A DNA stretch of 64,000 nt from Lunularia cruciata (lineage: Eukaryota; Streptophyta; Marchantiopsida; Lunulariales; Lunulariaceae). Both the position numbers and the translations under genes were made by a program. Location of the stretch: assembly GCA_948567375.1 (NCBI GenBank), contig OX419761.1, positions 44,740,243-44,804,242 on the forward strand. The letters run 5' to 3'. The notes beneath the pieces are model-generated. The model saw nothing but the letters and a program-made list of their open reading frames with translations. It did not search any database and was not told where the DNA came from. This document shows, piece by piece, positions 1,726-46,929 of the stretch (within the stretch, counting starts at the first letter, position 1; each line of letters opens with the position of its first letter).

Positions 1726-1726
1726 A

Positions 1727-8956: not shown

Positions 8957-9087
8957 TGTAATACCAAAAGCTAGCCATATGGTCTAGATGTGAAATTTGG
9001 TTTGGTAACATCTGGAATGATGTTATACATGATGGGCAAAATAGATCAGATAGAAGTATCACCAAAAGGGTACTTTTATTAATAGGG
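8957..9087 (+). repeat. CHR-2 solo LTR, left part
   Basis: Starts TGTAATACC like CHR-1 LTRs and is preceded by GGTTG (8952-8956). The LTR is cut at 9087 by MET-1 and resumes at 19022. The 4-bp AGGG (9084-9087) is the MET-1 target duplication. Confidence 0.9.
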
Positions 9088-9536
9088 TGTCACGCCATTT
9101 GTAGTTCCGCATCTAGATGCTCGGACACTGGAGTTCCAGTGATGGTAGTTAGAGTTATTCTAGCAGTTTCTCAAGGACTACTTTCCGACGGTTAGATTTT
9201 GTGTTTGGGGTACTGACTTCACGGTGGGGCCCCCCGTCACTTTGCACCGTTTGCACCGTCGAGTGTGCCGTCAGCGAGACCGTTAGGGTTTCAGGGCTAG
9301 CTCGAGTCCAAGGGGTATAGTTTCGAAGTGAGCTCTAGAGAGCTCACTTCTCTGATGTTGAGCCTTCGAGTTCCTGGCTATGGTGGACAGAGGCCGGCGA
9401 GCGTCACCTGGATTCTCTATGCTTGAGTGGGTGTGGCTTGACTGTAATCAGTGCCCAATTGTTGGCAGTTTATAGAGTGACAGATCAAGTACTGATCTGA
9501 GTTGAGTTGAGTTGAGAATGTTAAGCAATCTGATTA
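9088..9536 (+). repeat. MET-1 left terminal repeat segment L
   Basis: 449 bp matching 18476-18915 (440 bp); the difference is a 9-bp duplication (tttgcaccg) near 9240. The right copy continues into segment S (tgtggcac), whereas here the sequence continues as catcagagaag, so the left end lacks S. Confidence 0.9.
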
Positions 9537-10802
9537 CATCAGAGAAGTGAAGTCAGGGGGAAATCGGGTGCAGGAACGTTGAGTGTTGGTGGTATCTCCA
9601 AGCTCGGTGGATCGTGGTAGCTCGATTCAGGTTCTGTGTTTCCCTAGTGTGCAGAAGCTCGTGTAGTTGATGCAAATTTGGCAGTTAGGCGGACGGTGTG
9701 CGGAAGCGCTGGCCAAATTTCAAGCAAAGAAGGAGCAATTTTTGAGCAGTGTTGTGATTTTGAGCTCAAGAGGTGAAGGCAGGACCAATTTGCTGCGAGT
9801 TGGGCTTAGAAAGTGAAATTGAAGGTGGAGTTGGAAAGCTCTCCTCATGAAATTGTGATTTGGAAAAACCCGTTTTGTCAATTTGGCTTGAGTGGAAAAT
9901 TAGCGGGGGATTTGGCGGACATCCATCTTCAGGGTTTACGTCAGATTTTACGTCAGATTTACGTCAGATTTTTGGGCCAGAATTGGAGGAGTTTCGCTGT
10001 TTGGCCAGATTTGGAGAAGTTTTGCTAGTTTGGAGGAGTTTCGCAGATTTGGAGAAGTTTTGCCAATTTTGGAGGAGGTTCGAAGTGGCAACAAGAAAGG
10101 CCTCATTTGGCTGAATTTTGGCGCTTCGAGGCATAGGGCTGTGGGCTATGAGAGGCTACGAAGGCCTAGAAGGGCCAGAAGGGCCAGCAAGCCAGCTTGC
10201 TGGCGTGAGGCTAGCTAGTTTAGTGTAGATCTTGGTCATTGGTTGACAAAATCTGCCTTTCTTGCTAGATTGTGCGCAACAGGGTTTGACCCCTAGATCT
10301 CTTGTTCCTAGACTGGTGCCCTAGCCAACTGGTCCACCCTCACTTGTTGTCATAGTGACCGTGCCACTGTTATCTATACACATGTAGCTTTGGCTAGGAG
10401 AGGCAGTTTGATCCCATTCTTGGTGATCCTGGTAGCTTAGGACTTAGATACGAACTACTCTTATGTCAAATGCCAAATGGTGGCAGAGTCAGTCCCGTGT
10501 TGTGTTATGAGATGGAAGGTTTTCTGTTAGATTTCTTGTGATTGGATCCCCTCCATTCTTTGCTTCCTGTTTGTGCACCATGTTTGTGTGAGGTGCCCTG
10601 ACTTTTGAGCGTTGGTGCTCTGGTGTGCTCTCGGTGGTGAGGCTGGAGTGATGACCAGTCAGACTACCTTTGTTTCTCTCCGGTGAGGCAGGAAGTGATG
10701 ACCTGCAGACCGTGAGAGTGCGTGTTATGATGGCAGGTTACAGGTTGCCCTTCCCCTAGTGTAGTTATCTTGGTTAGAGTTACATTAGTGGGTGGTGTTT
10801 AG
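9537..10802 (+). other. MET-1 untranslated leader
   Basis: About 1.27 kb between the left repeat and gag, conserved in MET-2 (46930-48126 and 44589-44701, reversed). No primer-binding TGG lies next to the repeat. The nearest candidate is TGGTATC at 9590-9596, about 50 bp in and conserved in MET-2, but it matches the initiator-Met site for only 7 bases. It carries a tRNA-like module on the opposite strand (10277-10345). The CCGG near 10678 is the empty equivalent of the INS-E site in MET-2. Confidence 0.6.
10277..10345 (-). ncRNA. tRNA-like / SINE-like Pol III module in MET-1 leader
   Basis: On the minus strand an A-box-like TGGACCAGTTGG (10325-10336) is followed about 33 nt later by a B-box-like GGTCAAACCC (10282-10291), normal tRNA spacing. 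The same pair is in the MET-2 leader. I could not fold a complete cloverleaf, so this is a tRNA-derived relic or promoter rather than a functional tRNA. Confidence 0.45.
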
Positions 10803-13530
10803 TTGGTGTTGGCACGCGGTGGTGTTGGCACTTGGTGGGGCACTTGCGTTTGCGACTTGCTGTTGCAGTTGGTGGTTCGGGTTTGTTGGTGTGGTTACTT
10901 TGTCACGACGGAGTTCTTTGGAGATTCCAAAGGAGTAAGCCCTGCAGTACGCAGTGGGTTTACTCGGAGTGGTGCTCGGTATCAGCCTGTATCTCAGGTC
11001 CCAGTAAGGGAGGAGATTGACTCTGAGTTGGAGTTTGACACAGGAGCTGATTCAGTTGAGAGTGCACTTGGTGTGTCCACACCGTTGTTGTGGGACATGG
11101 ACGAGATTTATGGGGCCTCCAAAGGCCCTAGGCGTTACTCTGGTACAGTGGGTACCATTGAGTTGGATGACTTCATCCAGGAGTTTGATAGTTGGTGTGA
11201 TCTGCAGCAAATGCGGAACCCGACTTTGTTCACACCCTTCATGGCATGGAAGGGGTTGTTTCAGCACTTGGAGGGTCCGCCGATGGATGATTACCATGAG
11301 TTCAGGAGAGCTCATTTGGAGGAGATTGAGTTATGGAGACAGTATTGGTCTCCACACTATGTCTCCATCACTTCAGGTTCGGTGGCCATGAGTAGATCGG
11401 CTGTACCTACGAGTTCTAGCTCGAGTAGTGTTGGTTGAGCTAGTGGAGGTGCACTAGCTAGAGATAGTGCTAGTACGAGTGGAGGTACCGTTGCAGGAGG
11501 TGGTGTGGTACCGGGGTTTAACCCCATGGTGGAGTTCTTCCTATGTTTGAGGCAGAACTACCAGGGAGTGCGGACTGACAAGCTGAAGAGCTTGCAGGAG
11601 TTCCAGTGGAAGGCTGGAGAGAGCCTACGCGAGGCATACACTCGCATGAGGCGGCTGATCAGTTTCACTCAGGGAGTTACTGAGGCCCAGGCAGTCCAGT
11701 TTTGGTATAGGATACTGGACAGGGAGTTGTGACGTAGAGTTCGTGATGCTATGTTGTTGCAGGCTACTTTGCCCACTTTGGCAGTAGTCTTTGGTTTGGC
11801 TGAGCGTATTGAGCTCAACATGGTGGAGGAGAGAGTGGTGACAGCTGGATTTGGTAGAGAGACCTCATCCACGGTTGTGACTTCTTCTAGAGTGCAGCAG
11901 AGTGCACCACGCCCAGTTGGTTTTCGAGGACAGGGTGGACAGCCCAGATCCTATGGAGCGAGTGGAGGGCCTAGTGGAGTTAGACCCTTACCCTCATTTT
12001 CGGGGCAGCAGCAGCCAGTGAGTGGTGGTGTTGCTTGTTGGACTTGTGGTGGACCTCACCATAGGAGAGAGTGTACTCAGGACAGCGGACCTGATACCTC
12101 TGGTGCATCACAGCCAGCACAGAGGCAGTGTGAGCACTGCCATAGATTTGGTCATACTAGTGACCGGTGTTTTGACCTACACCCGGAGTTACGGAGTGGC
12201 AGGGCTGCTATGGCAGGTAGTAGAGGAGCTCCAGTTCATGGAGGACGAGGTGGTAAAGGTGGTGGTAGAGGATCTACACCTAGTAGGGGTGCAGTACCTG
12301 CCCTTACTTCTGACACAGCTATGGCTACTCGGATTGAGCAGTTGGAGCAGAGATTGGCTAGTATGGCTATTGCTCAGAGGAGATCAGATTCGGGTGCTGA
12401 GGCTTCCACCTCATATGCTGGTGATAGAGATGCTTTGGACTTCATGTGCGGAGCAGCACAGGTGGATGCATCTGCAGTAGTGACTAGGAGTGCAGTACGT
12501 GCTCCAGAGCCTAGAGGAGCATCAGTGGAGTTGGACCCACAAAGAGGAGAGGTTGGGAGACAGGTCAGACTTCCCCAGTCTTTCACGCTATCTGAGGCAT
12601 TGCAGACGACATCCATGGTTCCTAGACGTCCCAGTGCAAGTGTGGTAGGTGGTGATGGAGTACCTGATGGAGTACCTTCTAGTCAGCCACCTGCTACTAC
12701 ACAGACTGAGTCTAGCATGATGTTGGGGGCGGCTCAGCTGATTATGCGGCATCCTTTGTTTTCAGCCAGTGACATGTTTACATCGGGAGTTGACCCAGCC
12801 CCAGTGTTCCGGTTGGCTACCACGTTGTGTGAGAGTAGGGATGGTGCGGTTCCTACTACTAGAGCAGAGGTGGTTGGTAGTGGAGCTGACTTGGTTGAGG
12901 AGCATGGGATCCGTTCAGCGACCAGTGGTTTATGGCAGGCAGCAGCGGCTAGATTGGAGGAGTTGCCAGCTAGACCGGCCTTTGAGAGAGCGCGGTTTAC
13001 ACCTGGTGTTGTCCTATTGGATAACCAGAGGGGGATCTTTTGTTTGGTGGGACCTTCAGGGAAGGTCTATACACCACAGAGAGTCTTGTTAGACTCTGGT
13101 GCGCAGCCCCTTATGTTGGGGAAGGCTGCAGTTGTTGGTCTGGAGTTACGGAAGACCGATGTGGAGAGGTGTCCATTTCAGATCCAGACATCTCTTGGTG
13201 GTGGTTCGACACAGTACATCACACGTGGAGAGCTTGTTGTCCAGGTTCAGCCTGGTCATCCGACTGATAGCTCGGTGGTGAGAGCTCAGGCTATTGCGAC
13301 GATAGCTGAGTCCTATGATGTGCTAGTTGGGGGAGCAGTGTTATACCCTATGGGTTTCAGTATTGACTATTGGGAGGAGACAACCTCTTATAGACCTGGT
13401 TGGCAGTCTGGTGAGGGACGGGTATGTCGCCTACCAGTATGCTTCAGTAGTGGCAGTCTTGGCTCACTACAGTCCGGGACCATGGCAGCATCAGTTTTGG
13501 CTTTCAACGGTGTAGTTACTTGGCCTGGTC
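10803..13530 (+). pseudogene. MET-1 gag-protease
   Basis: One reading frame with TGA stops at 11436 and 11730. The N-terminal and capsid-like part includes a region around 11535-11730 with WKAGESLREAYTRMRRL, typical of retrotransposon Gag. Nucleocapsid has two zinc knuckles: 12036-12074 (C-x2-C, two His, C) and a canonical CCHC at 12129-12170, in a basic, glycine-rich context. An aspartic protease follows with L-L-D-S-G-A at 13086-13103 (DSG 13092-13100). The frame runs towards the methyltransferase and is lost at about 13529, where MET-2 has two extra bases and stays open. So protease and methyltransferase were originally one continuous frame. The exact start codon is uncertain. Confidence 0.85.
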
Positions 13531-14562
13531 TTGTTGGAGGGGAACGCCCATGCAGAGGATACTCCAGTACCAGAGGAGATCACTCAGCTATGGAGTACGA
13601 GTGGGATTGTTCCATCCACCTTGGATGTTCCATTGTGGAGTTCAGAGGAGGCATTGCAGCAGCATGCAGATCAGTTGGTGCAGCAGGCTTGGAGTGGAGC
13701 CTTCGTACCATCAGGGGATGAGTGTGAGGATGCGCCTCCAGAGGCGATTGCTTTGACACCTCTGGATACCACACTCATTGCTTGGCAGTACCCAGTAGAG
13801 GGGATATGCCTATTGGAGTTGTTTGGTGGGATCAGCACCGGACTAGCTGCGGTGTTACAGGCGGGTATCCGAGTACAGAGGTACTTGTATGTAGAGAGAG
13901 ATGAGACTGCTAGGCGAGTCTCTCTACATCATGTGGCACACTTGGCCTATTGGTATCCAGAGTTATTACCGATGTCAGCAGTCAGAGGTTACCAGAAGGC
14001 CTTACCAGAAGACATTTCCTTACTGGGGGCGCATGACCTAGAGAGACATGGGCCTGTTCACTTGGTGATTTATGGATGGCCATGTCAGGGACATACACTT
14101 ACGGGCCGTGGTTTGGGTCTTCAGGATCCTCGTTCGGGTGTGTTTTGGGAGATGTTACGGATATTACGACATCTCCAAGTTCATCTGTCTGTTTCTCTAG
14201 CTTACCTTTTGGAGAACGTTCCTTTGATGGGTGATTCTCGCACTAGAGTGGTGGCAAGTACACATCAGGTCCATTCTTGGATGGGACCTGCTGTATTGTT
14301 AGATGCAGCCAGAGTGGGATCACGGGCTCATCGTCTTCGTCTTTGGTGGACGAACCTCTTACCCAGAGAGGTTCTACAGCGTAGTTATGATGGGATTCAG
14401 CGACTAGACCACATTCTTGTTGATGATATCTTGGATGCTGGACGTCAGTCTCAGACAGTAGTAGTGGCTGATAGGTCACCTATGGCAGTGGTGAACCTAG
14501 TTGGACAGCCTAGAGCTGCATTTCCCACACTCATGAGTTTCCCAGGCTCTCATGCTTTTTGA
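13531..14562 (+). pseudogene. C5 cytosine DNA methyltransferase domain within MET-1 Pol
   Basis: A 343-codon open stretch with the methyltransferase motifs in order. Motif I is LLELFGGISTGL (residues 94-105, S-adenosylmethionine binding). Motif II is YVERD (120-124). Motif IV is GWPCQG with catalytic Cys185 (codon 14083-14085). Motif VI is LENVP (227-231). Motif VIII is RAHRLRLWW (265-273). By eye the motif I/II and VIII style is nearer DNMT3-type than DNMT1-type enzymes, without certainty. All key residues are present, although the frame is joined to protease through a 2-bp deletion and ends at TGA 14560 (from CGA). Expected reaction is methylation of cytosine C5 in DNA. MET-2 carries a second copy, cut in two by OTA-C. 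Confidence 0.9.
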
Positions 14563-15321
14563 GAGGGAGGACCTAGACTTGTTTGGGACTCACAGTTATA
14601 GCAATTGGTGGAGCCCAATGCTGATGAGAGAGAGCGGGCGATGGGTTTTTGCACCGGTATTACCGCTGTTCCAGCAGTGTCAGAGGCATCCAGGCGTTAG
14701 GTGTTAGGTCAGGCTATGGACCTGAACTGTTTGACCTGGATTGTGAGCCTTGGTTTGGCAGAGCAGCATAGGATGCGCTTGATAGGCATCACCACTCGGA
14801 CACTTGTGAGCCCTGTGCCTATCAAGACGATTCAAGCACATGCTGGGAGCGATGGACCGAGTGGACATGGTATTCTTGGGACACGTCTTGTAGCTACTAG
14901 GGAGAGTGGTCTACTTGGAGTCCATCCAAGTGAGCGTGGGCTACTTGGATTACACCCTTGGTCCACATGGGATGCAGCCAGAGGACGTATGGAGCTTGCA
15001 GCCAGAGTGGAGGGAGTTTTTCACACAGAGGTTGGGACCTCTAGTGGTCGGGAGCATGACACCATTGCTCCCAAGGGCCCAGTGTAGCAGCCAGTTAGTA
15101 CGTCTTCCACTCCTACTACAGTTACAGAGGATACTTGGGAGCCAGATCTTGGACCCAAGCTTACTGGAGAGGAAAGACGGAGGGTTTGGAGGTTCTTGAG
15201 TAGTCACACGAGTTGTTTTGCCTTCAGTATGAAGGATTTGGGTGCTCTGAAGGGACCTGGTATACGGATTGAGCTGACTAGCGACACACCAGTTTTCCGA
15301 CGTCCTTATTGATATAGTGAT
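14563..15321 (+). pseudogene. MET-1 linker between methyltransferase and reverse transcriptase
   Basis: The same frame continues with stops at 14560, 14599, 14698, 15085 and 15310, several of which fit CAG or CGA altered by C-to-T. A shift may occur around 14800-15080, where another frame (14906-15199) looks more protein-like. The last part (from about 15150) is the reverse transcriptase N-terminus (EERRRVWRFL, then RRPY before the stop at 15310). No other domain is recognised. Confidence 0.6.
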
Positions 15322-15846
15322 ATGGAGAGGACATTGATTCAGAGCCGGAGTAGTGACCTTTTTGAGGCTGGTTTGGTGGAGATTTCACATGGAGAGTATG
15401 CATCAGCGACAGTGATGCCAGCCAAGAAGGATATGCATGGCAACTATACAGATAGGCGGATGTGTGGAGATTACTGTCCTATCAACCGACAGACCAAGGC
15501 TGATTGGTATGCCATGCCTACACCGGAGGAGATTTTTGATGCGATTGGGCATGCAAAGGTCTTCAGTACTTTGGATCTTCGAGCAGGATATCATCAGTTG
15601 CCGATTAGGGAGGAAGATAAGTTCAAGACAGCATTTTGGGCTATTGATCCTCACGGCAAGGATATGTTATATCAGTGGAGGTTCTTACCATTTGGGTTAA
15701 AGAACGCTCCTGCTGAGTTCCAGAGGATCATGGATAGGATCCTAGCTGGATTGGATTTTGCTCGGTGCTATATTGATGCATTTTGGTTTATAGCACTACT
15801 CTGGAGGAGCATGAGAGACAGTTGTTGGAGGTGTTTGAGAGGTTGA
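15322..15846 (+). pseudogene. MET-1 reverse transcriptase, N-terminal half
   Basis: Fingers and palm of a Ty3/gypsy reverse transcriptase: KKDMHGNY, CGDYCPIN, STLDLRAGYHQL and FLPFGLKNAP. The catalytic YIDD is broken: codons for Y-I-D stand at 15769-15777, and a one-base deletion then throws the rest out of frame. MET-2 shows the next bases as gacattt and has its own one-base loss a few bases further on. The remainder of the domain continues in the next frame from 15783. Confidence 0.88.
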
Positions 15847-16580
15847 GATCTCATGGACTCAAACTACATCCTGGGAAGTGTAGGTTCTTCCACAAGCAGG
15901 TTGAGTATTTGGGTCACACTATCTATCCCGGAGGACTTGGTGTTCAGCAGACCAAGGTGGAGGCTATTGCACGTATTCCTCGGCCTACGGATGTGAGCAG
16001 AGTGCGAGCATTCCTTGGGTTGGCAAACTTCTATCGCCGCTATGTTAGAGGATTTAGTGCCATTGCCAAGGCCTTGACTAAGCTGACCAAGCTTACACAG
16101 GAGTGGTGTTGGGGAGATGAGCAGGAGAGAGCTTTTGTAGAGCTCAAGGAGAGGTTGACATCTGCTCCTATTTTGAGGAGACCGATTAGGGGACGACCAT
16201 TTCAGGTTCACATTGATTGGAGTATGTTGGGGCTTGGAGCGGTGCTCACCCAACATGATGATGAGGAGAAGGAGTTTGTGGTGGCCTATGCTAGTCGCTC
16301 CAACAATTCAGCGGAGGCGAAGTATAGTTCATATGAGGGAGAGTGCTTGGCAGCAGTTTGGGCAGTAGCACATTTCCGATGTTACCTGTTTGGTAACCCC
16401 TTCACTCTCATCACTGATCATCAGCCGCTGAAGTGGTTGATGGAGTCCGACAAGCTTTCAGGGAAGCTTGCACAATGGGCTCTGATTTTACAGGAGTATG
16501 ATTTCATGGTTGTTCACAGACCTGGAGTGGTGAACCGTGATGCAGATGGGTTGAGTAGAAACCCATGTCCCAGCCAGTAG
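15783..16580 (+). pseudogene. MET-1 reverse transcriptase C-terminus and RNase H
   Basis: Begins VYS right after the broken YIDD. It includes the thumb/connection motifs GKCRFF, VEYLGHTI and FLGLANFYRRYV. RNase H has HIDWSMLGLGAVL (the usual DAS is DWS), the E of YEGECLAAVWA and ITDHQPLKW. It ends with the VNRDADGLSR segment typical of gypsy RNase H. The stop at 16578 is CAG in MET-2, so it is a later C-to-T change; the frame then continues to 16776. Confidence 0.88.
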
Positions 16581-16633
16581 GATCAGACCGGAGCACGTTG
16601 GCATGGTGAGACAGATGAGGAGATGGTGCCAGG

Positions 16634-18199
16634 TTGGCATGCATCGGCCTTCTGTGTATATTTGCAAAGACTTTGGTGGTATCTCTCTCAGCGCATACAG
16701 GAGGAGTTATTGAGGTCACAGATCCAGAGAGTGAAGATATTGGTACAGTTCAGCGAGACATTCATGATGATGTCTTAGTGATGGACTATCTTTGCACTGG
16801 TGTTGTGGGTGGCACAGTTGGGGCCAAGGAGAGAGACCGTGTTCTTCAGCGAGCCAGATGGTTCAGATTGGAGGGTAGACACCTTTTGCGTGTATGGGAG
16901 GATGGTAGAGTGCGAGTAGTACCACTTCCATCACAGAGACCACAGTTGGTCCGTCATGCTCATGAGGAGCTAGGACATTTTGGAGTAAAGCGTACATATA
17001 GCTTACTTCAGAGTCATTATTGGTGGCGCGGTATGCAGACCGAGGTACAGCAGTTTGTTGCCAGATGTATGGTTTGTGACCGAGTTAGAGCATCATTCAA
17101 TGCTCCTACGCCACAGTTACACCCATTACCTATCATGGGATTGGGTTACCGTTGGAGTTTGGACTTTGCCGGACCTTTACCGCTGACTATGAGACATCAT
17201 CGATATGTTTTGGTGATCGTGGAGCACTTCTCCAAGTGGATTGAGTTGGTGGCACTTCCTGACAAGTCTAGTGAAGGGACAGCTTACTCGTTCTTGGATC
17301 GAGTTCTTAGTCATTTTGGTGCACCAGCTGAAGTTTTGACTGATCAGGGTACAGAGTTCTTGGGAGAGTTTCAGGTCTTGTGTGACAAGGCTTTGATTGA
17401 TCATCGTACTACATCTCGAGATCACCCTGAGGCAGATGGCTTAGCAGAGAGAGTGGTTCAGACGGTGAAGAGAGGATTGCAAAAGTATGGTTTCCAGAGA
17501 GGCCACTTGGGAGATTGGGATCTCCAGTTACCTTGGTTGGCCATGGGCTATCGGTTCAGCCGGCAAGCCTCCTTAGCATCCTTCTCTCCATACTTCCTAC
17601 TCTATGGACGAGATCCAGATTTACCTGCAGCCATTCGTCGAGATGCTACTATAGTTTTGGACTTGGATGACCCCGATGTATGGATGAGCGCATGTTCTCA
17701 ATGGGCAAAGATCTTTTGGAGAGTGATGCTGATGGCCTTTGAGAACTTGGCGATTGCTCAACATAGAGATACTTTATGCTATGCTACCATTCGAGGAGGA
17801 GGTTATAGACCCTCGATCCGTCGATTTCATCCAAGCGACTATGTATATCTACAGCAGACAGCACCGACGACACTTGATGTTTCTACAGGCCATACTATCT
17901 TGAGAGTGCGTGAGGTTTTGCCATCTAGAGTCCTTGTGTTAGAAGGACGTGATGGTGTTGTTTGGAAGGATCATGTGCGCAATTGTGCGCCATGCCACCT
18001 TCCAAACATTGATGGTACTATGGACCCAAGCTTGGCACTTGTACGTGCAGGCTTGAGGTGTATGTTATGTGGCTCTTCTGGTGGAGCTGCTACTATGTTA
18101 GTGTGTGATAGCTGTTCGAGAGGATGGCATATGGCATGTATGACTCCTCCCCTCATGGTGGTTCCTCAGGGACAGTGGTTATGTCCTAGATGTACTTGA
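16634..18199 (+). pseudogene. MET-1 integrase with C-terminal PHD finger
   Basis: 521 open codons, in the -1 frame relative to RNase H; MET-2 shows the same offset. The zinc-binding N-terminus has His108/110 and 115 with Cys145 and Cys148. The catalytic triad Asp177 (SLDFAGP), Asp237 (LTDQGTEF) and Glu272 (LAERVVQ) is intact, with 34 residues between the last two. A C-terminal DNA-binding-like region follows. Instead of a chromodomain there is a PHD finger at residues 476-520 (DNA from 18059), with a complete C4-H-C3 ligand set: C-x2-C, CDSC, WHMAC, CPRC and W before the last pair. PHD fingers read histone H3 tails, so this may direct insertion. Free of stops over 1.5 kb, this is the best-kept part of MET-1. 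Confidence 0.92.
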
Positions 18200-18368
18200 C
18201 CTATAGCTAGTTCATTCTTTATATGGTATAGATTGCAGACAGGCGACTAACGATGGGGCTCCATAGCACCCGGCCTCCTGATCTTTGCCCATTAAAGGGT
18301 ATACCATATACTTAGAGTAGATGGCTATCTGGAGTTAGAGGGACCTAACCGCCAGCTAGGGGGGCGAT
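18200..18368 (+). other. MET-1 3' untranslated segment with polypurine tract
   Basis: After the integrase-PHD stop. ctaggggggcgat at 18356-18368 lies immediately before segment S (tgtggcac). MET-2 has the equivalent agctagggaggcaat. This placement suggests plus-strand synthesis starts at S. Confidence 0.65.
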
Positions 18369-18473
18369 TGTGGCACTTTAGAGTCTATGTATGACTTATG
18401 TGTGAGTTGTGCTTTTAAAGTGTATGATGTTGACAGTGATGTATGTTGTGTAGCAATGTATATACGCATGACA
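18369..18473 (+). repeat. MET-1 internal copy of segment S
   Basis: 105 bp, TGTGGCAC...CATGACA, nearly identical to 18917-19021. Separated from the right L copy by only GC (18474-18475). Confidence 0.9.
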
Positions 18474-18480
18474 GCTGTCA
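18469..18480. other. Palindromic S-L junction
   Basis: TGACAGCTGTCA, a perfect 12-bp inverted repeat formed by the end of S, two bases GC and the start of L. The two outer ends of the inserted element (TGTCA... and ...GACA) are these same half-sites without the GC. Confidence 0.85.
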
Positions 18481-18915
18481 CGCCATTTGTAGTTCCGCAT
18501 CTAGATGCTCGGACACTGGAGTTCCAGTGATGGTAGTTAGAGTTATTCTAGCAGTTTCTCAAGGACTACTTTCCGACGGTTAGATTTTGTGTTTGGGGTA
18601 CTGACTTCACGGTAGGGCCCCCTGTCACTTTGCACCGTCGAGTGTGCCGTCAGCGGGACCGTTAGGGTTTCAGGGCTAGCTCGAGTCCAGGGGGTATAGT
18701 TTCGAAGTGAGCTCTAGAGAGCTCACTTCTCTGATGTTGAGCCTTCGAGTTCCTGGCTATGGTGGACAGAGGCCGGCAAGCGTCACCTGGATTCTCTATG
18801 CTTGAGTGGGTGTGGCTTGACTGTAATCAGTGCCCAGTTGTTGGCAGTTTATAGAGTGACAGATCAAGTACTGATCTGAGTTGAGTTGAGTTGAGAATGT
18901 TAAGCAATCTGATTA
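18476..18915 (+). repeat. MET-1 right terminal repeat segment L
   Basis: 440 bp matching 9088-9536, ending ctgatta, then one T and segment S. Confidence 0.9.
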
Positions 18916-18916
18916 T

Positions 18917-19021
18917 TGTGGCACTTTAGAGTCTATGTATGACTTATGTGTGAGTTGTGCTTTTATAGTGTATGATGTTGACAGCGATGTATGTTGTGTA
19001 GCGATGTATATACGCACGACA
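18917..19021 (+). repeat. MET-1 terminal copy of segment S
   Basis: 105 bp, TGTGGCAC...CGCACGACA. It forms the right end of the element; the AGGG target duplication follows at 19022-19025. Confidence 0.9.
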
Positions 19022-19650
19022 AGGGCAAAACACCAAAATAGATTTGAAAACCTTAGAACCAATAGCTAGACATATGATTTGAAGGTGAGAATTTGGTTAG
19101 TAACATCTGGAAGGATGTAACACAAGATGGAATGAATAGATCAGAAAGAGGGATCACCAAAAGGGGACTTCTACTAATAGAGTTGGAACCAAAATATGCC
19201 TGAAATCTTTGAAGGCAATTTCGGAGGCCTAAATGGATGAATTAGGCCTCAAAAATGTGATAAACCTCCACTCCAACAAAGAAAATGCTGGCCTTCCCTC
19301 CCTCCTGCTTTGTCTTGTCAAGAGCTTTCCAACGGTACCTCACCTACGTGATTTTGAGATTCCTACAAGAAGATTCCCTAAAAGATTCCCTCTGGTCAAA
19401 GCTTTTTTGACCAACCAGATAGGACCAGGACCAACATGTCACCCATCCAAGTAAGTAATCCAAGGGTGGAGCTTGTTGACATGTCACCTATCTATGTAAC
19501 TAATCTTTTGGTGGAGCTTCAGTGGAGGAGATCCGCTTTACCTATATAATAAAGAGAAGGTGCTCCTTTGGGGCATCGGAGTTTGAGTGTGAAAGTGTGT
19601 GTTTCTCATGGTGTGTTTCTCTTCAGGTCTCCTATCCTTGAAGTATTACA
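19022..19650 (+). repeat. CHR-2 solo LTR, right part
   Basis: Continues the CHR LTR from the point where 9087 stops, through a TATA-like acctatataataaag near 19540, to tattaca at 19650. GGTTG follows (19651-19655), matching 8952-8956, so CHR-2 is a solo LTR left by LTR-LTR recombination before MET-1 arrived. Confidence 0.9.
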
Positions 19651-29162: not shown

Positions 29163-29812
29163 TGTTGTGCGTATATACATCACTACACAACATACATCGC
29201 TGTCAACATCATACACTATAGAAGCACAACTCACACATAAGTCATACATAGACTCTAAAGTGCCGTAATAATCAGATTGTTTACAACTCTTAAATACACT
29301 CAACTCAGATCAGTACTCGATCTATCACTCTATAAATTGCCAACAATTGGGCACTCATTACAATCAAGCCACACCCACTCTAGGTAAGAGAATCTAGGTG
29401 ACACTTGCCGGCCTCTGTCCACCATAGCCAAGAACTCGAAGGCTCAACTTCAAAGAAATGAGCTTTCCTAGAGCTGCATTTTGAAAGTATACCCTTGGAC
29501 TCAAGCTAGGTCTAAAACCCTAATAGTCCCACTTACGTCACACTTGATGGTAAAAATGGTGCAAAGTGACGGTGGGCCCCATTGTGAACACAAAATCTGA
29601 CCGTCGGAAAGTAGTCTCTAAGAAACTGGTGAAATAACTCTAACTACTATCACTGCAACTCTAGTGTCCAAGCAATCTAGATGCGACACTACAAATAGTG
29701 TGATAGCTATTGTGCATATATACATCGCTACACAACATACATTGCTGCTTACATCATACACTATAGAAGCACAAGTCACACATAAGTCATACATAGACTA
29801 TAAAGTGCCATA
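29163..29812 (-). repeat. MET-2 right-end split repeat block (S-GC-L-S)
   Basis: In element orientation: S 29812-29708, GC, L 29705-29269, one base, S 29267-29163. The palindromic junction is degraded (gtgatagctatt, 29700-29711). Next to S in the element interior is the purine run agctagggaggcaat. Confidence 0.88.
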
Positions 29813-29981
29813 ATTGCCTCCCTAGCTAGTGGTAAGGTCATTCTAACTCCATATAGCCATCTACTCCAAGTATATGGTAGACCCTATGATGGGCAAAGAT
29901 CAGGAGGCCGGGTGCTATAGAGCCCCATCATTAGTCACATGTCTACAGTCTATACCATATAAAGAATGAACTAGCTATAGG

Positions 29982-31547
29982 TCAAGTACATCTAGGACAT
30001 AACCATTGTCCTTGAGGAACTAACATGAGGGGAGGAGTCATACATGCCATATGCCATCCTCTCAAATAGTTATCATACACTAACATAGTAGTAGCTCCAC
30101 CAGAAGAGCCATGTAACATAAACCTCAAGCTTGCACATACAAGTGCCAAGCTTGGGTCCATAGTACCATCAATGTTTGGGAGGTGGCATAGTGCACAATT
30201 GCATACATGATCCTTCCAAATAGCACTATCACATCCTTCAAACACAAGGAATCTAGATGGTAAAACCTCACACACTCTCAAGATAGTGTGGCTTGTCAAA
30301 ACATCAAGTGTTGTCGGTGTTGTTTGTTGTAGATCTACATAGTCACTTGGATGAAATCAACGAATTGAGGGTCTATAGCCTCCTCCTCAAGTGGTAGCAT
30401 AACATGAAGTATCTTTATGCTGAGCAATTGCCAAGTTCTAAAAAGCCATCGGCATCACTATCCAAAAGATCTTTGCCCATTGAGAACATGCGCTCACCAT
30501 ACATCAGATCATCCAAGTCCAGACTACAATAGCATCTCGACAAATGGCTGTAGGTAAATTTGGATCTCATCCATAGAGTAGAAAGTACAGAGAGAAGGAT
30601 GCTAAGGAGGCTTGCCAGCTGAACTGATAGCCCATGGCCAACCAAGGTAATTGGAGATTCCAATCTCCTAAGTGGCCTCTCTGCAAACCATACTTTTGCA
30701 ATCCTCTCTTGATTGTTTGAACCACTCTCTCTACTAAGCCATCTGCCCTCAAGGTGATCTTGAGATGTAGTATGATGATCAATCAAAGCCTTGTCACACA
30801 AGACCTGAAACTCCCCCAAGAACTCTGTACCTTGATCAATCAAAACCTCAGCTAATGCACCAAAATGACTAAGAACTCAATCCAAGAACGAGTAAGTTGT
30901 CCCTTCACTAGACTTGTCAGGTAGTGCCACCAACTCAATCCACTTGGAGAAGTGCTCCACCATCACCAAAACATGCCAATGATGTCTCATAGTCAACAGT
31001 AAAGGTCCAACAAAGTCCAAACTCCAACGGTAACCCAATCCCATGATAGGAAATGAATGTAATTGTGACGTAGGAGCATTGAATGATGCTCTAACTCGAT
31101 CACAAACCACACATCTGGCAACAAACTGCTATACCTCAGTCTGCATACCGTGCCACCAATAATGACTCAGGAGTAAGCTATATATATATGCTTTACTCCA
31201 AAATGTCCTAGCTCTTCATGAGCATGATAGACCAACTGTGGTCTCTAAGATGGAAGTGGTGCTACTCGCACTCTACCATCCTCCCATACACACAAAAGGT
31301 GTCTGCTTTCCAATCTGAACCGTTTGGTTTGCTGAAGAACATGGTCTCTCTCCTTGGCCCCAACTATGCCACCCACAACACAAGTGCAAAGATAGTCCAT
31401 CACTAAGACATCATGATGAATGTCTTGCTGAATTGTACCAATATCTTCACTCTTTGGATCTATGATCTCCATAACTCCTCCTATATGCTCTAAGAGAGAT
31501 ACCACCAAAGCCTCTGAAAATATACACAAAAAGCCAATGCATGCCAA
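29982..31547 (-). pseudogene. MET-2 integrase and PHD finger remnant
   Basis: Collinear with MET-1 16634-18199 but split into pieces (31245-31547, 30877-31110, 30567-30843, 29982-30299). The first catalytic Asp (SLDFVGP) is visible, as is the second (IDQGTEF), shortly before the break. The PHD finger retains GWHMACMTPP and WLCPRC but has lost the first C-x2-C and the CDSC cysteines (FMLHG, YDNY), so it cannot bind zinc normally. Confidence 0.8.
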
Positions 31548-32594
31548 CCTGGCACCATCTCCTCATTTGTCTCACCATGCCAACGTTCTCCGGTCTGATC
31601 CTGCTGGCTGGGACATGGGTGTCTACTCAACCCATCTGCACCACGGTTCACCACTCTAGGTCTGTGAACAACCATGAAATCATACTCTTGTAAAATCAGA
31701 GCCCATTGTGCAAGCTTCCCTAAAAGCTTGTCGGACTCCATCAACCACTTCAGTGGCTGATGATCAGTGATGAGAGTGAAGGGGTTACCAAATAGATAAC
31801 ATCAAAAATATGCTACTACACAAACTGTTGCCAAGCACTTTCCCTCATATAAACATACTTTGCCTCCATTGAATTGTTGGGGCGACTAGCATAGGCCACC
31901 ACAAACTCCTTCCCCTCATCATCATGTTGGGTGAGCACCTCTCTAAGCTCTAACATACTCCAATCAATATGAACCTAAAATGGTTGTCCTCTGATCAGTC
32001 TCCTCAAAATAGGAGCGTATGTCAACCTCTTCTTGAGCTCTACAAAAGCTCTCTCCTGCTCATCTCCCCAACACCACTCCTCTATAAGCTTGGTCAACTT
32101 TGTCAAGGCCTTGGCAATGGCACTAAATCCTCTAACATAGCGGCAATGGATGTTTGCCAACCCAAGGAATGCTCGCACTTTGCTCATATCTGTAGGCCAA
32201 GGAATATGTGCAATAGCCTCCACCTTGGTCTGTTGAACACCAAGTCCTCCGGAGTAGATAGTATGACCCAAATACTCAATCTACTTGTGGAAGAACCTAC
32301 ACTTCCCAAGATGTAATTTTCATCCATGAGATGTCAACCTCTCAAACACCTCCAACAATTGTCTCTCATGCTCCTCCATTGTAGTGCTATAGACCAAATG
32401 TCATTAATATAACACCAAGAAAAATCCAATCCAGCTAGGATCCTATCCATGACCCTCTGGAACTCAATAGCAGTGTTTTTTAACCCAAATAGTAAGAACC
32501 TCCATTGATAGAACACATCCTTGCCATGAGGATCAATAGCCCAAAATGTTGTCTTGGACTTATCCTCCTCCTTTATCAACAATTGATATCCCAC
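31490..32594 (-). pseudogene. MET-2 reverse transcriptase and RNase H remnant
   Basis: Palm segment 32334-32594 (FGLKN, RILAGLDFSWCYIND), where the catalytic YIDD is YIND. It loses frame within a few bases through a missing T, close to but distinct from the MET-1 lesion. Thumb (31975-32271) and RNase H tail (31490-31744; VNRGADGLSR) follow. RNase H continues in frame past the position of the MET-1 stop at 16578, showing that stop is secondary. Integrase lies in the -1 frame, as in MET-1. Confidence 0.8.
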
Positions 32595-32599
32595 TCAAA

Positions 32600-33100
32600 G
32601 ATCCAAAGTATTGAAGACCTTTGCATGCCCAATTGCATAAAAAATCTCCTCTAGTATAGGCATGACATACCAATCAGCCCTGGTCTGTCAATTGATAGGA
32701 TGGTAATCTCCACACATTTGCCTATCTGTATAGTTGCCATGCATATCCTTCTTGGCTAGCATCACTATCGCTGACACATACTCTCCATGTGAAATCTCCA
32801 CCAAACCAGCCTCAAAAAGGTCACTACTCCAACTCTAAATCAATATCCTCTCCATATCACTATATCAATAAGGATGTTAAAAAATTGGTGTATCGCTAGT
32901 CAGCTTAATTTGTATACCAGGTCCCTTCAAAGCACTCAAATCCTTCATATTGAAGGCAAAAAAACTTGTGTGGCTCCCAAAGAACCTCCAAACCCTCTGT
33001 CTTTCCTCTCCAATAAGCTTGGGTCCAAGATGTAGCTCCCAAGTATCCATGTAATTGTAGTAGGAGTGGAAGACATGAGTATGGGAAATGCGGTTCTAGG
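32600..33100 (-). pseudogene. MET-2 reverse transcriptase N-terminus and linker
   Basis: Matches MET-1 around 15100-15590 at DNA level (reverse complement) with multiple stops; nothing else is recognised. Confidence 0.6.
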
Positions 33101-33554
33101 CTATCCAACTAGGTTCACCACTGCCATAGGTGACCTATCAACCACTACCACTGTCTGAGATTGATGCCCAACATCCAAGATATCATCAACAAGGATGTGT
33201 TCAAGTCTTTGAATCCCATCATAAGCATGATGTAAAACCTCTCTGGGTAAGAGTTTCGTCCACCAAAGACAAAGACAATGAGCCCATGATCCCACTTTGG
33301 CTGCATCTAACAATATAGTAGGTCCCATCCAAGAATGGACCTGATGTGTACTTGCCACCACTTTGGTGTGAGAATCACCCATCAAAGGAATGTTCTCCAA
33401 AAGGTAAGTTGGAGAAATGGACCAATGAACTTGGAGATGTCATAATATTTGCAACATCTCCCAAAACATGCCAGAAGAATGATCTTGGAAACCCAAACCT
33501 TGGCCAATACATGTATGTCCCTGACATGGCCATCCAGAAATTACCAAGTGAATA
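33101..33554 (-). pseudogene. MET-2 methyltransferase, C-terminal half
   Basis: Contains motif VI as MENIPLMGDS and a damaged motif VIII (WAHCLCLWWTK against RAHRLRLWW in MET-1). Motif IV sequence lies just before, near 33480-33540. OTA-C separates it from the N-terminal half at 41373. Confidence 0.8.
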
Positions 33555-33559
33555 GGCCC

Positions 33560-34237
33560 TATGAGCAGGCCTATCTCTCACTCAAGATGAACCTCTGATG
33601 GCTATTATGGTAGCGCACCATGGACTAAGAAGGCAAGGAACCCCAACTCCATCATACTCCTCCAAGGCTAACACTCCAAGACTCAAGACATTGCTCACTA
33701 GAGAACTCAATGAGAGAGAGATAGTTGCAAATGAAAGGATGATGAGTACATCCTCACCCCTTGTTTATATACTTGTGAAATAGTTACGTACCAAAGTTAC
33801 TAATTACCATGGTAACTCAAGTTACAAGTAAAGTCAAAAAGTAGAAAGGAATATCCATTCACATGGGCATATTCCCCTAAGCATATGGTCTTATCCTAAC
33901 CCAACCACTAAGTCAAGGATTCCTTCACATGGGCTATCCTTGGACTAAAGAAGAATCCAAAACAAAAAGGCTTGCGGGCCCAAGAGTTCTCAACTATTTC
34001 CTCAAAGCCAAACACCTAGGAATAATACCAAGTCAACACACTAAAATCCAAAATAGTGTTGCTCATCTTTTCTACTTCCTCTAAAGTAAGGTCCCCTCTA
34101 TCTCAACTATGACTAACTTTAGCTAACCATGACTAATATAGAACCATCCTTTATCTCTATATAAATAATATCTCTTAAGTACTTGTAATACCAAGTTAAA
34201 TATCACAATACCACACACATGCACAAATGTGTGTTAC
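33560..34237 (-). repeat. OTA-C 3' LTR
   Basis: 678-bp direct repeat of 40682-41372. Starts tatgagcagg and ends gtgttac(a) on the plus strand. The purine run ccgggggtaaa (reverse complement of 34239-34249) adjoins it in the interior. Confidence 0.9.
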
Positions 34238-34286
34238 ATTTACCCCCGGACTAAGTTTTCACTTTGTCCTCAAAGTGAAGGTCTCT

Positions 34287-34592
34287 CTACCTTCTATGGT
34301 ACATCTTCAACTTATCATGGCTAATCCTATCAAAGTGTCTTCCTCCCAACTCCTTGAGATCATAGGTGTAATTTCCCCACACCTTCTCCACTATGAAAGG
34401 TCCAAAGTACTTAGGCAAAAACTTCTTTTGCACTCTCTTGAATTGAATGGAATCAAACAACATTACCCAATCACCTTCTTTGAAAGTCTCCACCTTCTTC
34501 TTGCCTTGCCTCTTGTCATAGCTCTCCTTTTGTTTCCTTTGGGCTTGCTCCACTTGAACCATAGCAACTGCTCTTGCCTCTCCTAACTCCAT
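34287..34592 (-). pseudogene. OTA-C integrase C-terminal module
   Basis: About 100 codons with WVMLFDS, KYFGPFIVEKVWGNYTYDL and HDKLKMYH, the usual GPF/Y module that ends gypsy integrases. It lies one frame off the integrase core, indicating a small indel near 34600. No chromodomain or PHD finger follows. Confidence 0.8.
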
Positions 34593-37219: not shown

Positions 37220-37256
37220 ACCTGAAGCTCCTTCTTCAGAATCTGATTCCCAATAA

Positions 37257-38111
37257 TCAGAAGAATGGTGTATCTGAATGTGAAGTGTTGGTGATGTTAG
37301 TCACAGGAACTATGACTCTATGGTTTGATGGCCCAATTATCAAGTACCCTTTGTGCCATCGATCAGGTGTGCGTGCTGCTCTCAACCATGGCCTCCCAAG
37401 AAGTAAGTCATAGCTTGAATCCTTCAAGACTTGGAAAGTCATGAGATTTTGAACTCCCATAACTGAAACTACCACCTTATCCATCACCCCTACTGGTCAA
37501 ACTTGTTGCTTGTTTGCCATGCTCACCACAAATGTTGAAGGTCTTGAGGGTATCATACCCAACTTCTTCATCAACCTTTTTGACATGGCATTTACTGCTG
37601 ATCTTCCATCAACCAATGCATCCTTGATGTTGTGACCATTCATTCTCACATCAATCTTGGAGGCATATTCACAAGCCTCCCATGGTGCTGGTTTGGCATC
37701 CACCACCCCCATTGATACTAGAGCTTTTTCCTTCTTCTTCCTCTTGCTCCTTGTAGAACTCAAACCACCTCTAAGCTCCTTTCTCAAGGTAGGGTTCAAA
37801 ACAATTAATTGGCCCACTGTGATGTTAGCCTTGTGACTACCAACATCCTCCAACACATTGTAGTTCCATTGTTGCTTTGAAATCAAGAAATCCTCCATCC
37901 CCAAACTTCTTCCTTGGAGTCTTTGTTGTTGATGGTGTTGAGGTGCGAGTGCTCCTAGTAGACATAGGAGTATCCTTGCTTGAAGTAAATCCTTGAGAAG
38001 AGTGAACATCTTTTGCAAAATGAGCTCTCTTCTTCTCTTGTGCCAAAAGCTCCAAATTAAGACCCTTGGAGTTTGAGCACTCTCCCTTCTCATACTTGCT
38101 CTCAACCACAT
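37257..38111 (-). pseudogene. OTA-C protease region
   Basis: Aspartic protease with active-site stretch ALVDGRSAVNAM (usual D-S/T/G-G replaced by DGR), followed by the LLLGRPWLRAA motif that ends this protease type. A TGA at 37497 interrupts it. It overlaps the gag C-terminus in a shifted frame (+1), which may be a programmed shift or an indel. Confidence 0.7.
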
Positions 38112-39114: not shown

Positions 39115-39347
39115 CTTAACCCCTCACTGTCTTTCTTTTCTCTCAATTTTTTTTCTCTTTTCTTTTCTCTCACTCTATTACTAATAGAGTATATACATGA
39201 CTAACACCATCTGAGAATAATCCACTCTAGGGAACACAAAAGGTTCAGGTTGCTCCAAGATTTCTATAGCAACATCAAATCCTAGAGTGCATATTAATCT
39301 AACTCTCATGGATAGTTTATCCATAAGTTGAAAGATTATCTCCATCA

Positions 39348-39821
39348 CTAATCTTGAGAACTAGTTGATGAAGGTGGTAGTATTTCTGTAGTTGTACTAA
39401 GGCTCTCCCCAAGATCCTTCACCAAAGTCTCCAAAAGTGATTTTACTCCACTACACTCATGTCCTTTTAGAAGTCCTTCAACTCCACAAACCTCACACAA
39501 CTCCTTGGTCTTAGATCTTCTCCCTCCTAATCTTGGTGAAGAAGGTCCAACATGCAAACCTAAGTCAAGTAAGCCTCTCCTTTCCCTCAATCTCTTGCTC
39601 TCAAAGGTCAATGGACATGAACTTGCCTTATGTCCCTTCTCTCCACACAGAAAGCACTTAGACTCACTCTTTCCTCCAAGTGGTGTAGGTTTCTGGATCC
39701 TCTCAACACTCTCTTCAAATTCTATTGTAAACTCTCTTTTCCTCAAATCCACCCCTACAATCACCTCAAACCCTTGGGGAACCTTGCATAATCTCAATTT
39801 CCACTCTTGATTACCCTCCAT
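39348..39821 (-). CDS. OTA-C accessory ORF with zinc knuckle, upstream of gag
   Basis: Intact 157-codon frame between the 5' LTR leader and gag, separate from gag. Residues 57-70 form a second, independent CCHC knuckle (CFLCGEKGHKASSC), and a further Cys/His cluster (CEVCGVEGLLKGHEC) lies near 110-124. It ends in a Ser/Thr-rich tail. The N-terminal part (WKLRLCKVPQGFEVIVGVDL) is unrecognised. It may be an RNA-binding or regulatory protein. Absence of stops while pol has three suggests youth or protection. Confidence 0.65.
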   Translation of the reverse strand: MEGNQEWKLRLCKVPQGFEVIVGVDLRKREFTIEFEESVERIQKPTPLGGKSESKCFLCGEKGHKASSCPLTFESKRLRERRGLLDLGLHVGPSSPRLGGRRSKTKELCEVCGVEGLLKGHECSGVKSLLETLVKDLGESLSTTTEILPPSSTSSQD

Positions 39822-40660: not shown

Positions 40661-40677
40661 TCCCGGCAACGGAACCA
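40661..40677 (-). other. OTA-C primer-binding site
   Basis: On the minus strand TGGTTCCGTTGCCGGGA, four bases after the LTR end. It resembles the TGGCGCCGTTGCCGGGGA site common in plant Athila/Tat elements. Confidence 0.75.
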
Positions 40678-40681
40678 AAAA

Positions 40682-44588: not shown

Positions 44589-44701
44589 CCACTAATGTAA
44601 CTCTAACTGATATAACTACACTAGGGGAAAGGGCAACCTGTAACTTGCTATCACAACACGCACTCTCACGATCTGCAGGTCATCACTTCCTACCTCACCG
44701 G

Positions 44702-46925: not shown

Positions 46926-46929
46926 CCGG

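Follow-up and report, generated by a model that had tools for sequence, protein, structure and literature searches.

An abundant plant retrotransposon of Ty3/gypsy type with split terminal repeats and a probable route of integration through a junction inside its LTR

Two copies of a retrotransposon, MET-1 and MET-2, lie in the window, by which we mean the whole stretch of 64,000 nucleotides that was analysed, and both end in split direct repeats arranged as L1, internal region, S1, GC, L2 and S2. Based on these copies and on those sampled from the 566-Mb source genome, we consider it likely (probability about 0.75, judged from sequence) that MET is an element of Ty3/gypsy type that is reverse transcribed in the conventional manner and integrates by way of joined cDNA ends and an S^GC^L site.

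The original prediction gave the order of MET-1 as L-internal-S-GC-L-S, and each segment was found where it had been placed:

9084..9087, plus strand: AGGG, the duplicated target site on the left of MET-1 (the CHR-1 LTR shows the empty site)
9088..9536, plus strand: L1 (A1), the terminal segment on the left of MET-1, starting with TGTCACG (repeat match)
18369..18473, plus strand: S1 (B1) of MET-1
18476..18915, plus strand: L2 (A2) of MET-1
18917..19021, plus strand: S2 (B2) of MET-1, ending in CGACA
19022..19025, plus strand: AGGG, the duplicated target site on the right of MET-1
29163..48575, minus strand: MET-2, a copy that is laid out alike, has diverged further and holds nested insertions (CAAT at 48576-48579 and 29159-29162)
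48575-48127 (L1), about 29814-29710 (S1), about 29707-29269 (L2) and 29268-29163 (S2), minus strand: segments of MET-2

S1 and L2 of MET-1 are separated by the spacer GC (18474-18475), L1 and L2 match at 96.7% with one 9-bp gap, S1 and S2 match at 96.2%, and the outer ends of the element read TGTCACG...CGACA. The order claimed for MET-2 was seen on the minus strand, the predicted 4-bp duplications were present (AGGG/AGGG for MET-1 and CAAT/CAAT for MET-2), and both empty sites could be located, that of MET-1 in the CHR-1 LTR at about 1086-1150 and that of MET-2 where the flank matches converge near 62961-62965.

Between the repeats, MET-1 carries the following coding regions:

10803..13721, plus strand: gag region, with zinc knuckles recognised by eye, in several frames
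11439-11732, plus strand: weak Retrotrans_gag match, under the Pfam cut-off
13516..14562, plus strand: C-5 cytosine DNA methyltransferase domain (PF00145)
15313..16580, plus strand: reverse transcriptase and RNase H (Pfam PF00078, PF17917, PF17919), in two frames
16619..18199, plus strand: DDE integrase (Pfam PF17921, PF00665) with a C-terminal PHD finger (PF00628)

The Pfam matches in Pol follow the order reverse transcriptase, RNase H, integrase, as in Ty3/gypsy. Among 23 aligned sequences, including that of the window, integrase residue D242 is invariant and D182 and E277 are conserved in at least 90%, and the DDE residues of MET align with those of the Ty3 and PFV integrases. No tyrosine recombinase domain was present in the 16 MET-1 frames scanned against Pfam (6 + 10, out of 57 listed frames of at least 60 aa), and such an enzyme was rejected for these frames. 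Two scans of viral contigs yielded no relative.

MET had been said to bear the hallmark of the PAT/Ngaro tyrosine-recombinase elements; what stands of this is a PAT-like order in a DDE-integrase element, that is, a likeness of layout and not of enzyme. PAT, Ngaro and DIRS elements share with MET the split direct repeats A1-internal-B1-A2-B2, in which B1-A2 represents a pre-formed junction, but they encode a tyrosine recombinase and are not known to make a target duplication, whereas MET has a DDE integrase and 4-bp duplications and, unlike them, a recognisable primer site and polypurine tract.

Copies were then sampled from the best-scoring matches in the source genome. In all 50 distinct 5' ends, host DNA is followed directly by L and the internal region with no S upstream, and S-L type 5' ends were not seen (0/50). 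The first sample gave S-L-S in 21/21 3' ends, as well as 3 solo L-S insertions; overall, 35/35 sampled 3' ends read S, GC, L, then S, one of them with 88 leader bases that separate L from S, so that two identical terminal repeats were not seen in any of these integrated ends. Exact 4-bp target duplications flank 18 of the 23 paired copies, and a matching duplication is absent in 2/23 (L026/L011 and L035/L084), both of them CATCA copies, which are treated below. These counts rest on 20 of the 53 partner stretches wanted (one of the 53 lying inside the window); L045 and five of the 20 partner stretches (L077, L081, L091, L092, L095) contributed no matching part, L083 and L087, which were cut, stayed unpaired, MET-2 stands outside the pair counts, its repeats falling below the 85% cut, and L-internal-S copies and shortened (end-trimmed) L|S junctions are likewise outside the counts. 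Ty3/gypsy elements duplicate 4-6 bp of target; together with 6/6 further copies, the 18/23 agree with this range. By its proteins MET is thus filed as a Ty3/gypsy variant, and not as an ordinary LTR element because its terminal repeats are not identical.

The layout is neither a chance arrangement nor a two-copy rearrangement. Ordinary LTRs in most other copies, the outcome that the original prediction regarded as contrary to it, were looked for and not encountered (S-L 5' ends, 0/50), which also rules out a rearrangement private to MET-1 and MET-2. Descent of some few copies from a single rearranged master, with ordinary LTRs in the others, is hardly credible: we found no point in its support, a diverged subfamily copy (L097/L098, with L about 77-81% identical) keeps the layout together with the duplication TAGT, and the same layout is stated for Klebsormidium nitens elements in a figure legend of PMC5890265. 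The host flank before L1 of L098 ends in ATGATAGT, which is also an 8-base match to its own S end, and TAGT was the duplication chosen. A compound copy (L048/L096) contains three LTR units flanked by AAGA repeats, with two differing L|S junctions.

All three solo L-S insertions are bounded by exact 4-bp duplications. Their existence is in keeping with homologous recombination of a one-LTR circle with a solo L-S already in place, which would produce L-internal-S-GC-L-S, but this scheme explains neither the origin of the solo L-S nor the abundance of full copies, while recombination between L1 and L2 of full copies simply yields solo L-S; we regard it as very unlikely. A further, diverged solo L-S beside L058 is too decayed to tell of a primer.

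Four features bear on reverse transcription:

9316..9323, plus strand: TATAGTTT motif, its first base 28 bp before the start of the self-primer
9344..9357, plus strand: self-primer TCACTTCTCTGATG, with a second copy in L2 at 18723-18736
9537..9550, plus strand: primer-binding site CATCAGAGAAGTGA, predicted from sequence, abutting L1 and complementary to the self-primer at all 14 nt
18355..18366, plus strand: polypurine-rich tract GCTAGGGGGGCG, 2 bases upstream of S1

L1 therefore contains the TATA motif, the self-primer and the presumed start-site region. Complementarity of 14 was reached in none of 1243 internal 20-nt windows (largest, 9), and the longest inverted repeat, 15 nt, was equalled in length in 0/1000 shuffles. 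Pairing of the self-primer with the primer site is present in both the minimum-energy and the centroid folds (strand start assumed at 9346); the leader RNA fold as a whole was not more stable than shuffles (z 0.02). Priming by a tRNA at L1 was rejected, as TGG is missing after L1 (by eye) and the site is a perfect complement of L. The distance from the TATA motif suggests that the self-primer stretch forms the 5' end of the RNA. With the polypurine tract ahead of S and the self-primer site behind L, the repeats resolve, on this sequence evidence, into an ordinary reverse-transcription LTR, S-GC-L. The unusual replication or circular intermediate that the original prediction had implied is therefore supported only in part: an unusual or circular intermediate is favoured, but reverse transcription itself need not be unusual, and the unusual steps would be the joining of cDNA ends and integration at a site within the LTR.

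Tf1/sushi elements and plant Tcn1 have ordinary LTRs, in contrast to the split repeats of MET. A passage of PMC6317226 describes in them a primer-binding site at the U5 end that is complementary to their own RNA and not to a tRNA; the candidate primer site of MET likewise matches the element itself.

Comparison of L1 with L2 within copies showed variants common to both at column 77 (10 copies both, 0 discordant) and, downstream of the primer, at column 437 (3 both, 0 discordant), and pairing by copy was closer than in 10,000/10,000 permutations. At most of the remaining variable columns L1 and L2 disagree in some copies, chiefly by C/T or G/A, which we read as later mutation; the own L partner was strictly nearest in only 3/23 copies, with ties in 7. 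A within-copy signal was also sought between S1 and S2, and none was found.

The second junction of MET-1 is variable among copies:

18909..18921, plus strand: L2|S2 junction CTGATTA|TTGTGG, read from junction variants as the LTR-LTR joint

The standard joint occurs in 30/35 sampled 3' ends, the remaining 5 having inserted bases, out of 17 indel events in total over 692 bp. Genome-wide, 1894 exact standard junctions (95% of those counted by pattern) stand against 95 variants, defined as junctions in which L is followed by a base other than T and the insert is at most 30 nt long. Of these 95, (i) 64 have one extra A, (ii) 18 can be read as the first 1, 2, 5 or 6 bases after L1, with one further near match, (iii) one (L097) holds the primer complement, (iv) one holds a 16-nt filler, and (v) the rest are 8 probable substitutions and 2 others. 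Another copy, separate from that with 88 leader bases, has 20 leader bases and S-derived filler at L|S. The primer complement in L097 extends about 12 nt upstream of the expected RNA start (about 30 bp after the TATA), so that either the start is uncertain or snap-back copying took place.

Ten of 11 further CATCA copies were fetched, and the six in which both ends could be read all have exact 4-bp duplications, a count that omits the other 4 of the 10, whose small 5' stretches showed no start of L1, as well as the one unfetched. A lack of target duplications in CATCA copies, as in the first sample (2/2 lacking), was thus not borne out by the next (6/6 having), giving 6/8 overall for copies with both ends read. 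At the most common polymorphism of L, both alleles occur among them (2 T, 5 A, 1 unread), and the copies do not cluster, which rules out a single inherited subfamily, with distances that may be inflated as the six added L1 sequences are all partial (56 to 416 nt). This suggests that the CATCA copies are independent in origin.

The best reading of these variants is that L|S behaves like an LTR-LTR junction and is re-formed, although the standard joint is rather uniform for end joining and L|S may therefore be inherited in part. Full inheritance would follow from a PAT/DIRS-like templated route, in which the RNA would run from L1 to S2, closure would take place within reverse transcription via an S1-GC-L2 bridge, and L2|S2 would never be joined anew. 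The PAT-element layout and the identity of most counted L|S junctions speak for such a route, but independent insertions repeatedly gain filler or bases found only after L1 (leader or primer complement), the self-primer site lies exactly at the end of L1, and L1/L2 agreement within copies extends downstream of the primer (column 437). We therefore hold it to be improbable, and prefer re-formation of L|S by end joining.

The other junction, between S1 and L2, is constant:

18466..18483, plus strand: integrase-site-like palindrome GCATGACA-GC-TGTCACGC at the S1|GC|L2 junction (sequence)

As a control, we took S|NN|L sites with a base other than G at the first spacer position, of which there are 132. 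Among the 100 of these that were listed, the spacer is exactly 2 bases in 100/100 and no variant changes the length of S|GC|L (0/100), G-initial inserts and the other 32 sites being outside this control. The S^GC^L site recurs in 3/5 related contigs from other organisms (L101, L102 and L105), where a GACAGCTGTCACG site lies 59-115 bp downstream of a G-rich tract; one LTR unit was found in each, so that the site is known there and the integrated layout is not readable. L103 and L104 showed no such site, and both end about 0.4 to 0.5 kb past the integrase match. A primer complement of 13 nt and of different sequence is present in L101 (0/1000 shuffles as long); that of L102 is weaker (12 nt; 7/1000 shuffles as long), and 10 G-rich tracts are listed for this contig, so its polypurine tract is not unique. 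In L105, a primer repeat of at least 10 nt was looked for and not found.

From these features we propose the following route. Transcription would start inside L, downstream of the TATA motif, giving an RNA that spans L1 to L2. The 5' end of this RNA would pair just after L1 and prime minus-strand DNA by Tf1-like self-priming, the plus strand would start from the polypurine tract before S, and the linear cDNA would be S-GC-L-internal-S-GC-L. Its ends would then be joined L-to-S, the simplest form being a 2-LTR circle. The DDE integrase would bypass the cDNA ends and cut one of the S^GC^L palindromes, where the sequence looks like two element ends brought together around a 2-bp spacer; GC would be dropped and L...S inserted with a 4-bp target duplication, yielding L-internal-S-GC-L|S. 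Linear cDNAs ligated head to tail, with two S^GC^L sites cut by integrase, would yield the same integrated copies as a circle, and the compound L048/L096 is a sign that joining of separate LTR pieces can occur; as this requires two molecules where a circle requires one, we consider it a doubtful alternative to the circular form.

Some steps of this route have counterparts elsewhere. In IS3/IS30-type elements a DDE enzyme acts on a circle junction in which the inverted ends meet around a short spacer (that of MET is 2 bp), but these are DNA elements without reverse transcription. Cleavage of the LTR-LTR palindrome in 2-LTR circles has been reported for PFV integrase (PMC1180852), and in retroviruses linear DNA, not the 2-LTR circle junction, proved to be the precursor (PMC11054761). 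The circle-junction model for retroviruses and spumaviruses shares with that proposed for MET the action of integrase on a palindrome where two element ends abut (PMC11054761, PMC1180852); MET differs in that the junction would lie permanently inside the LTR, with integrated copies permuted to match.

The closest likeness is KnitGypsy-Dnmt3 of K. nitens (de Mendoza et al. 2018), for which a DIRS-like repeat layout is given in the Fig. 4 legend of PMC5890265, a SymbioDIRS passage of the same paper dealing with DIRS-type elements. It shares with MET the Gypsy domains, a cytosine methyltransferase in Pol and the DIRS-like repeats; the host genome of MET is a different one, probably that of a bryophyte. 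Integrase-PHD proteins of K. nitens match MET (P0010, 53% identity over 58% of the query), and 0/115 methyltransferase hits bear the name Klebsormidium, most hits being without organism name. In those parts of PMC5890265, the layout is stated only, and self-priming, the palindromic site, junction heterogeneity, duplications and the replication route are not discussed. MET is thus not the first report of a DIRS-like layout with Gypsy domains; relative to these parts of the paper, the proposed mechanism is new, and it is offered for a layout that was stated there without one.

In the accepted view, it is the ends of linear DNA that react when retroviruses and LTR retrotransposons integrate. Our findings suggest that MET, a very abundant plant retrotransposon, is opened in the middle of its terminal repeat, joins its ends first and integrates through its own internal junction; it appears to integrate only after cDNA end joining. 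About two thousand natural joints can be counted in MET, from which the intermediate can be read. We find it rather probable that, in a DDE-integrase lineage reaching from charophyte algae to bryophytes and other eukaryotes, the 2-LTR circle or end-joined cDNA is the normal substrate, opened at a circle-junction-like site present in every LTR. If true, this would be a natural case of a scheme once proposed and later rejected for retroviruses, convergent with the PAT elements. MET shows that split repeats can evolve in company with a DDE integrase, and it is a natural system in which the part played by LTR-LTR circles becomes testable.

Direct-repeat and BLAST searches bore out the split arrangement that the original prediction had assigned to MET-1 (L1, S1, GC, L2, S2) and recovered the identical segment order, as it had claimed, in MET-2 on the opposite strand. 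The proposed target duplications (AGGG for MET-1 and CAAT for MET-2) were likewise confirmed, and the LTR of CHR-1, a neighbouring element, does show the MET-1 empty site. The features of MET-1, all on the forward strand, are as follows:

9088-9536, first long segment (L1)
9344-9357, putative self-primer stretch TCACTTCTCTGATG, inside L, starting 28 bp past the first base of TATAGTTT
9537-9550, putative primer-site stretch CATCAGAGAAGTGA, adjoining the end of L1, perfect complement of TCACTTCTCTGATG in L
13516-14562, C-5 cytosine methyltransferase
18355-18366, polypurine-rich tract GCTAGGGGGGCG, two bases 5' of S1
18369-18473, first short segment (S1), followed by GC
18476-18915, second long segment (L2)
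18917-19021, second short segment (S2)

Besides the methyltransferase, MET-1 encodes gag-like frames, reverse transcriptase, RNase H and a PHD-finger integrase, which is alignable with the Ty3 and foamy-virus integrases; in an alignment of 23 sequences, D242 never varies, and conservation is at least 90% at D182 and E277. The 16 MET-1 frames scanned, of 57 listed, yielded no tyrosine recombinase domain. CHR-1 (984-8222), an ordinary LTR element whose LTRs (743 bp) are about 96% alike and which has a putative chromodomain read by eye, provides a conventional contrast, and the MET-1 target is a piece of LTR from its family.

The source assembly containing the window (565.8 Mb, 74 contigs) was searched with L1 and with the leader, i.e. 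the bases right after L1, and the best 40 scored matches were taken from 4260 and 3037 candidates, respectively. The layout held among 74 distinct L copies from these best-scoring matches and the fetched stretches: 50 read host-L-leader, 21 S-L-S and 3 solo L-S, and none showed S-L-leader, the ordinary LTR order. With 20 further stretches and the window added, all 35 3' ends read S, GC, L, and then S again, one of them (stretch L082) with 88 leader bases separating L from the last S. Copies with both ends (n = 23) comprised 18 with an exact 4-bp duplication, 2 with a one-base mismatch, 2 with none and 1 compound insertion, while the solo L-S copies had exact duplications in 3 of 3 cases. The compound insertion (stretches L048/L096, G000:C12:59332057 onward) is flanked by AAGA repeats and holds three LTR units (S-GC-L, S-TAGC-L, S); its two L/S junctions differ from each other, and the last L carries a 676-bp insert. 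It suggests that joining of separate LTR pieces can precede integration. A short copy (L028/L012, G000:C7:12086274-12092300), whose L1 and L2 starts are only 5.5 kb apart, keeps the split layout and an exact AAGT duplication, and is possibly an internally deleted, non-autonomous derivative. Two copies 18 kb apart in opposite orientations (L068, G000:C6:70951483; L067, C6:70969899) share an identical 22-bp upstream flank; they probably represent an inverted duplication of host DNA, element included.

Since the polypurine-rich tract precedes S1 and the self-complement follows L1, the LTR produced by reverse transcription should, judging from these sequence signals, be S-GC-L. Elsewhere, in 1243 internal 20-nt windows, matches to the complement of L reached at most 9. 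CATCAGAGAAGTGA and TCACTTCTCTGATG are paired in the minimum-energy fold of the leader (start assumed at 9346), the total energy of which is about that of shuffles. A perfect 26-bp palindrome, GAAGTGAGCTCTAGAGAGCTCACTTC (9325-9350), follows the TATA motif and reaches into the self-primer, to which its right arm belongs, so that a hairpin formed here would be in competition with the primer site. The integration-defined ends are TGTCACG at the L start and CGACA at the S end, and within the LTR both abut as GACA-GC-TGTC.

A cDNA with S-GC-L at both ends implies that the integrated L2/S2 joint could not be copied from RNA and must arise by joining of cDNA ends, so that variability is predicted exactly there. 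An indel scan of the 35 3' ends over 692 bp revealed 17 events, 5 of which lie within 3 bp of the L/S joint and none at S/GC/L. Genome-wide, the standard joint GATTA/TTGTGG, exact within a 27-base pattern, occurs 1894 times, and there are 95 variants with a non-standard first base after L and at most 30 inserted nt, a count that covers non-T-initial inserts at unshortened joints.

Variant classes at the L/S joint (n = 95)
+A: 64
CATCA+TTGTGG: 10
CATCA+ATTGTGG: 3
C before ATTGTGG: 2
CA before ATTGTGG: 2
CATCAG: 1
G+ATTGTGG: 1
CTTCA: 1
AAT+ATTGTGG: 1
16-nt filler: 1
Primer complement: 1
Likely substitutions: 8

As CATCAG corresponds to the bases following L1, CATCA-type inserts are read as a cDNA right end extended into the primer site; A and G ahead of TTGTGG are the bases preceding S at the polypurine tract. 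One fetched stretch (L099) carries 20 leader bases plus S-derived filler at the joint. In another (L097), the insert matches the complement of its own L upstream of the primer and not its own leader (L098), which fits a copied self-primer, although the copied stretch reaches further upstream than expected from the distance to TATA.

As a control, S/GC/L sites whose first spacer base is not G (n = 132; G-initial inserts fall outside this coverage) had exactly two spacer bases in all 100 listed. At these 100 places the spacer keeps its length and varies by substitution; most changes turn GC into AC or AT, the pattern that methylation of CAG/CTG sites would produce. Of 11 further copies with CATCA at the joint, 10 were fetched, and the 6 with both ends all had exact duplications, indicating separate insertions; the first two such copies had no matching duplication. 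Descent as one inherited group was rejected, both alleles of the commonest L polymorphism being present among CATCA copies, whose mutual similarity was below that of 4978 out of 5000 random sets (added sequences partial). L1 and L2 share variants within a copy (column 77, 10 both and 0 discordant; column 437, 3 both and 0 discordant), and their pairing by copy was closer than all 10,000 permutations, as expected if both were copied from one template. Against single-template copying, however, partial discordance is seen in most of the other variable columns and is attributed here to later C-to-T and G-to-A change; just 3 of 23 copies had their own partner as the strictly nearest sequence, and S1 versus S2 gave no within-copy signal.

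We conclude that cDNA is probably produced in the usual way and its ends then joined, most simply as a 2-LTR circle, whereupon integrase would act on one of the two internal S/GC/L sites. A joined linear cDNA in place of the circle is an equivalent alternative, inseparable from circles by these data. The action of the MET integrase at S/GC/L would resemble that of the transposases of circular insertion sequences, which act at abutted ends. A retroviral precedent is the foamy-virus integrase, reported to cleave the palindrome of 2-LTR circles (PMC1180852); such circles were once claimed as the retroviral precursor, a claim later rejected (PMC11054761). Tf1/sushi elements are described as self-priming, and the same is predicted for plant Tcn1 elements (PMC6317226). 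No proposal of this route appeared among the titles and abstract openings listed from the open-licence literature on split repeats, Gypsy/DIRS and 2-LTR circles.

Among the named integrase matches, the best was from Calypogeia fissa; others came from Klebsormidium nitens, Riccia sorocarpa, Marchantia polymorpha and Sphagnum fallax. A bryophyte is the probable host. Scanning prokaryote genome contigs with the 23-sequence alignment gave five matches (L101-L105; 43-62% identity), apparently eukaryotic retrotransposon contamination in bacterial and archaeal genomes (cyanobacterium, Mollicutes, Halanaerobiaceae, Halorubrum). Three of the five (L101, L102 and L105) have GACAGCTGTCACG 59-115 bp past a G-rich tract, downstream of the integrase, L102 having several additional G-rich tracts; one LTR unit was found in each, where the integrated order is not readable. 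The self-complement in L101 measures 13 nt and differs entirely in sequence (equally long in 0 of 1000 shuffles), lying about 29 bp past a TATAG motif by eye; that in L102 measures 12 nt (7 of 1000), and none of at least 10 nt was found in L105. L101 also carries a hairpin similar to GAAGTGAGCTCTAGAGAGCTCACTTC but of different sequence. For a methyltransferase-bearing Gypsy element of K. nitens, the split-repeat layout was already stated in 2018 (PMC5890265). Relatives of the methyltransferase at 13516-14562 occur in Marchantia, Calypogeia, Sphagnum and Riccia, and methyltransferase-bearing elements may thus be wider than the charophyte case described in PMC5890265.
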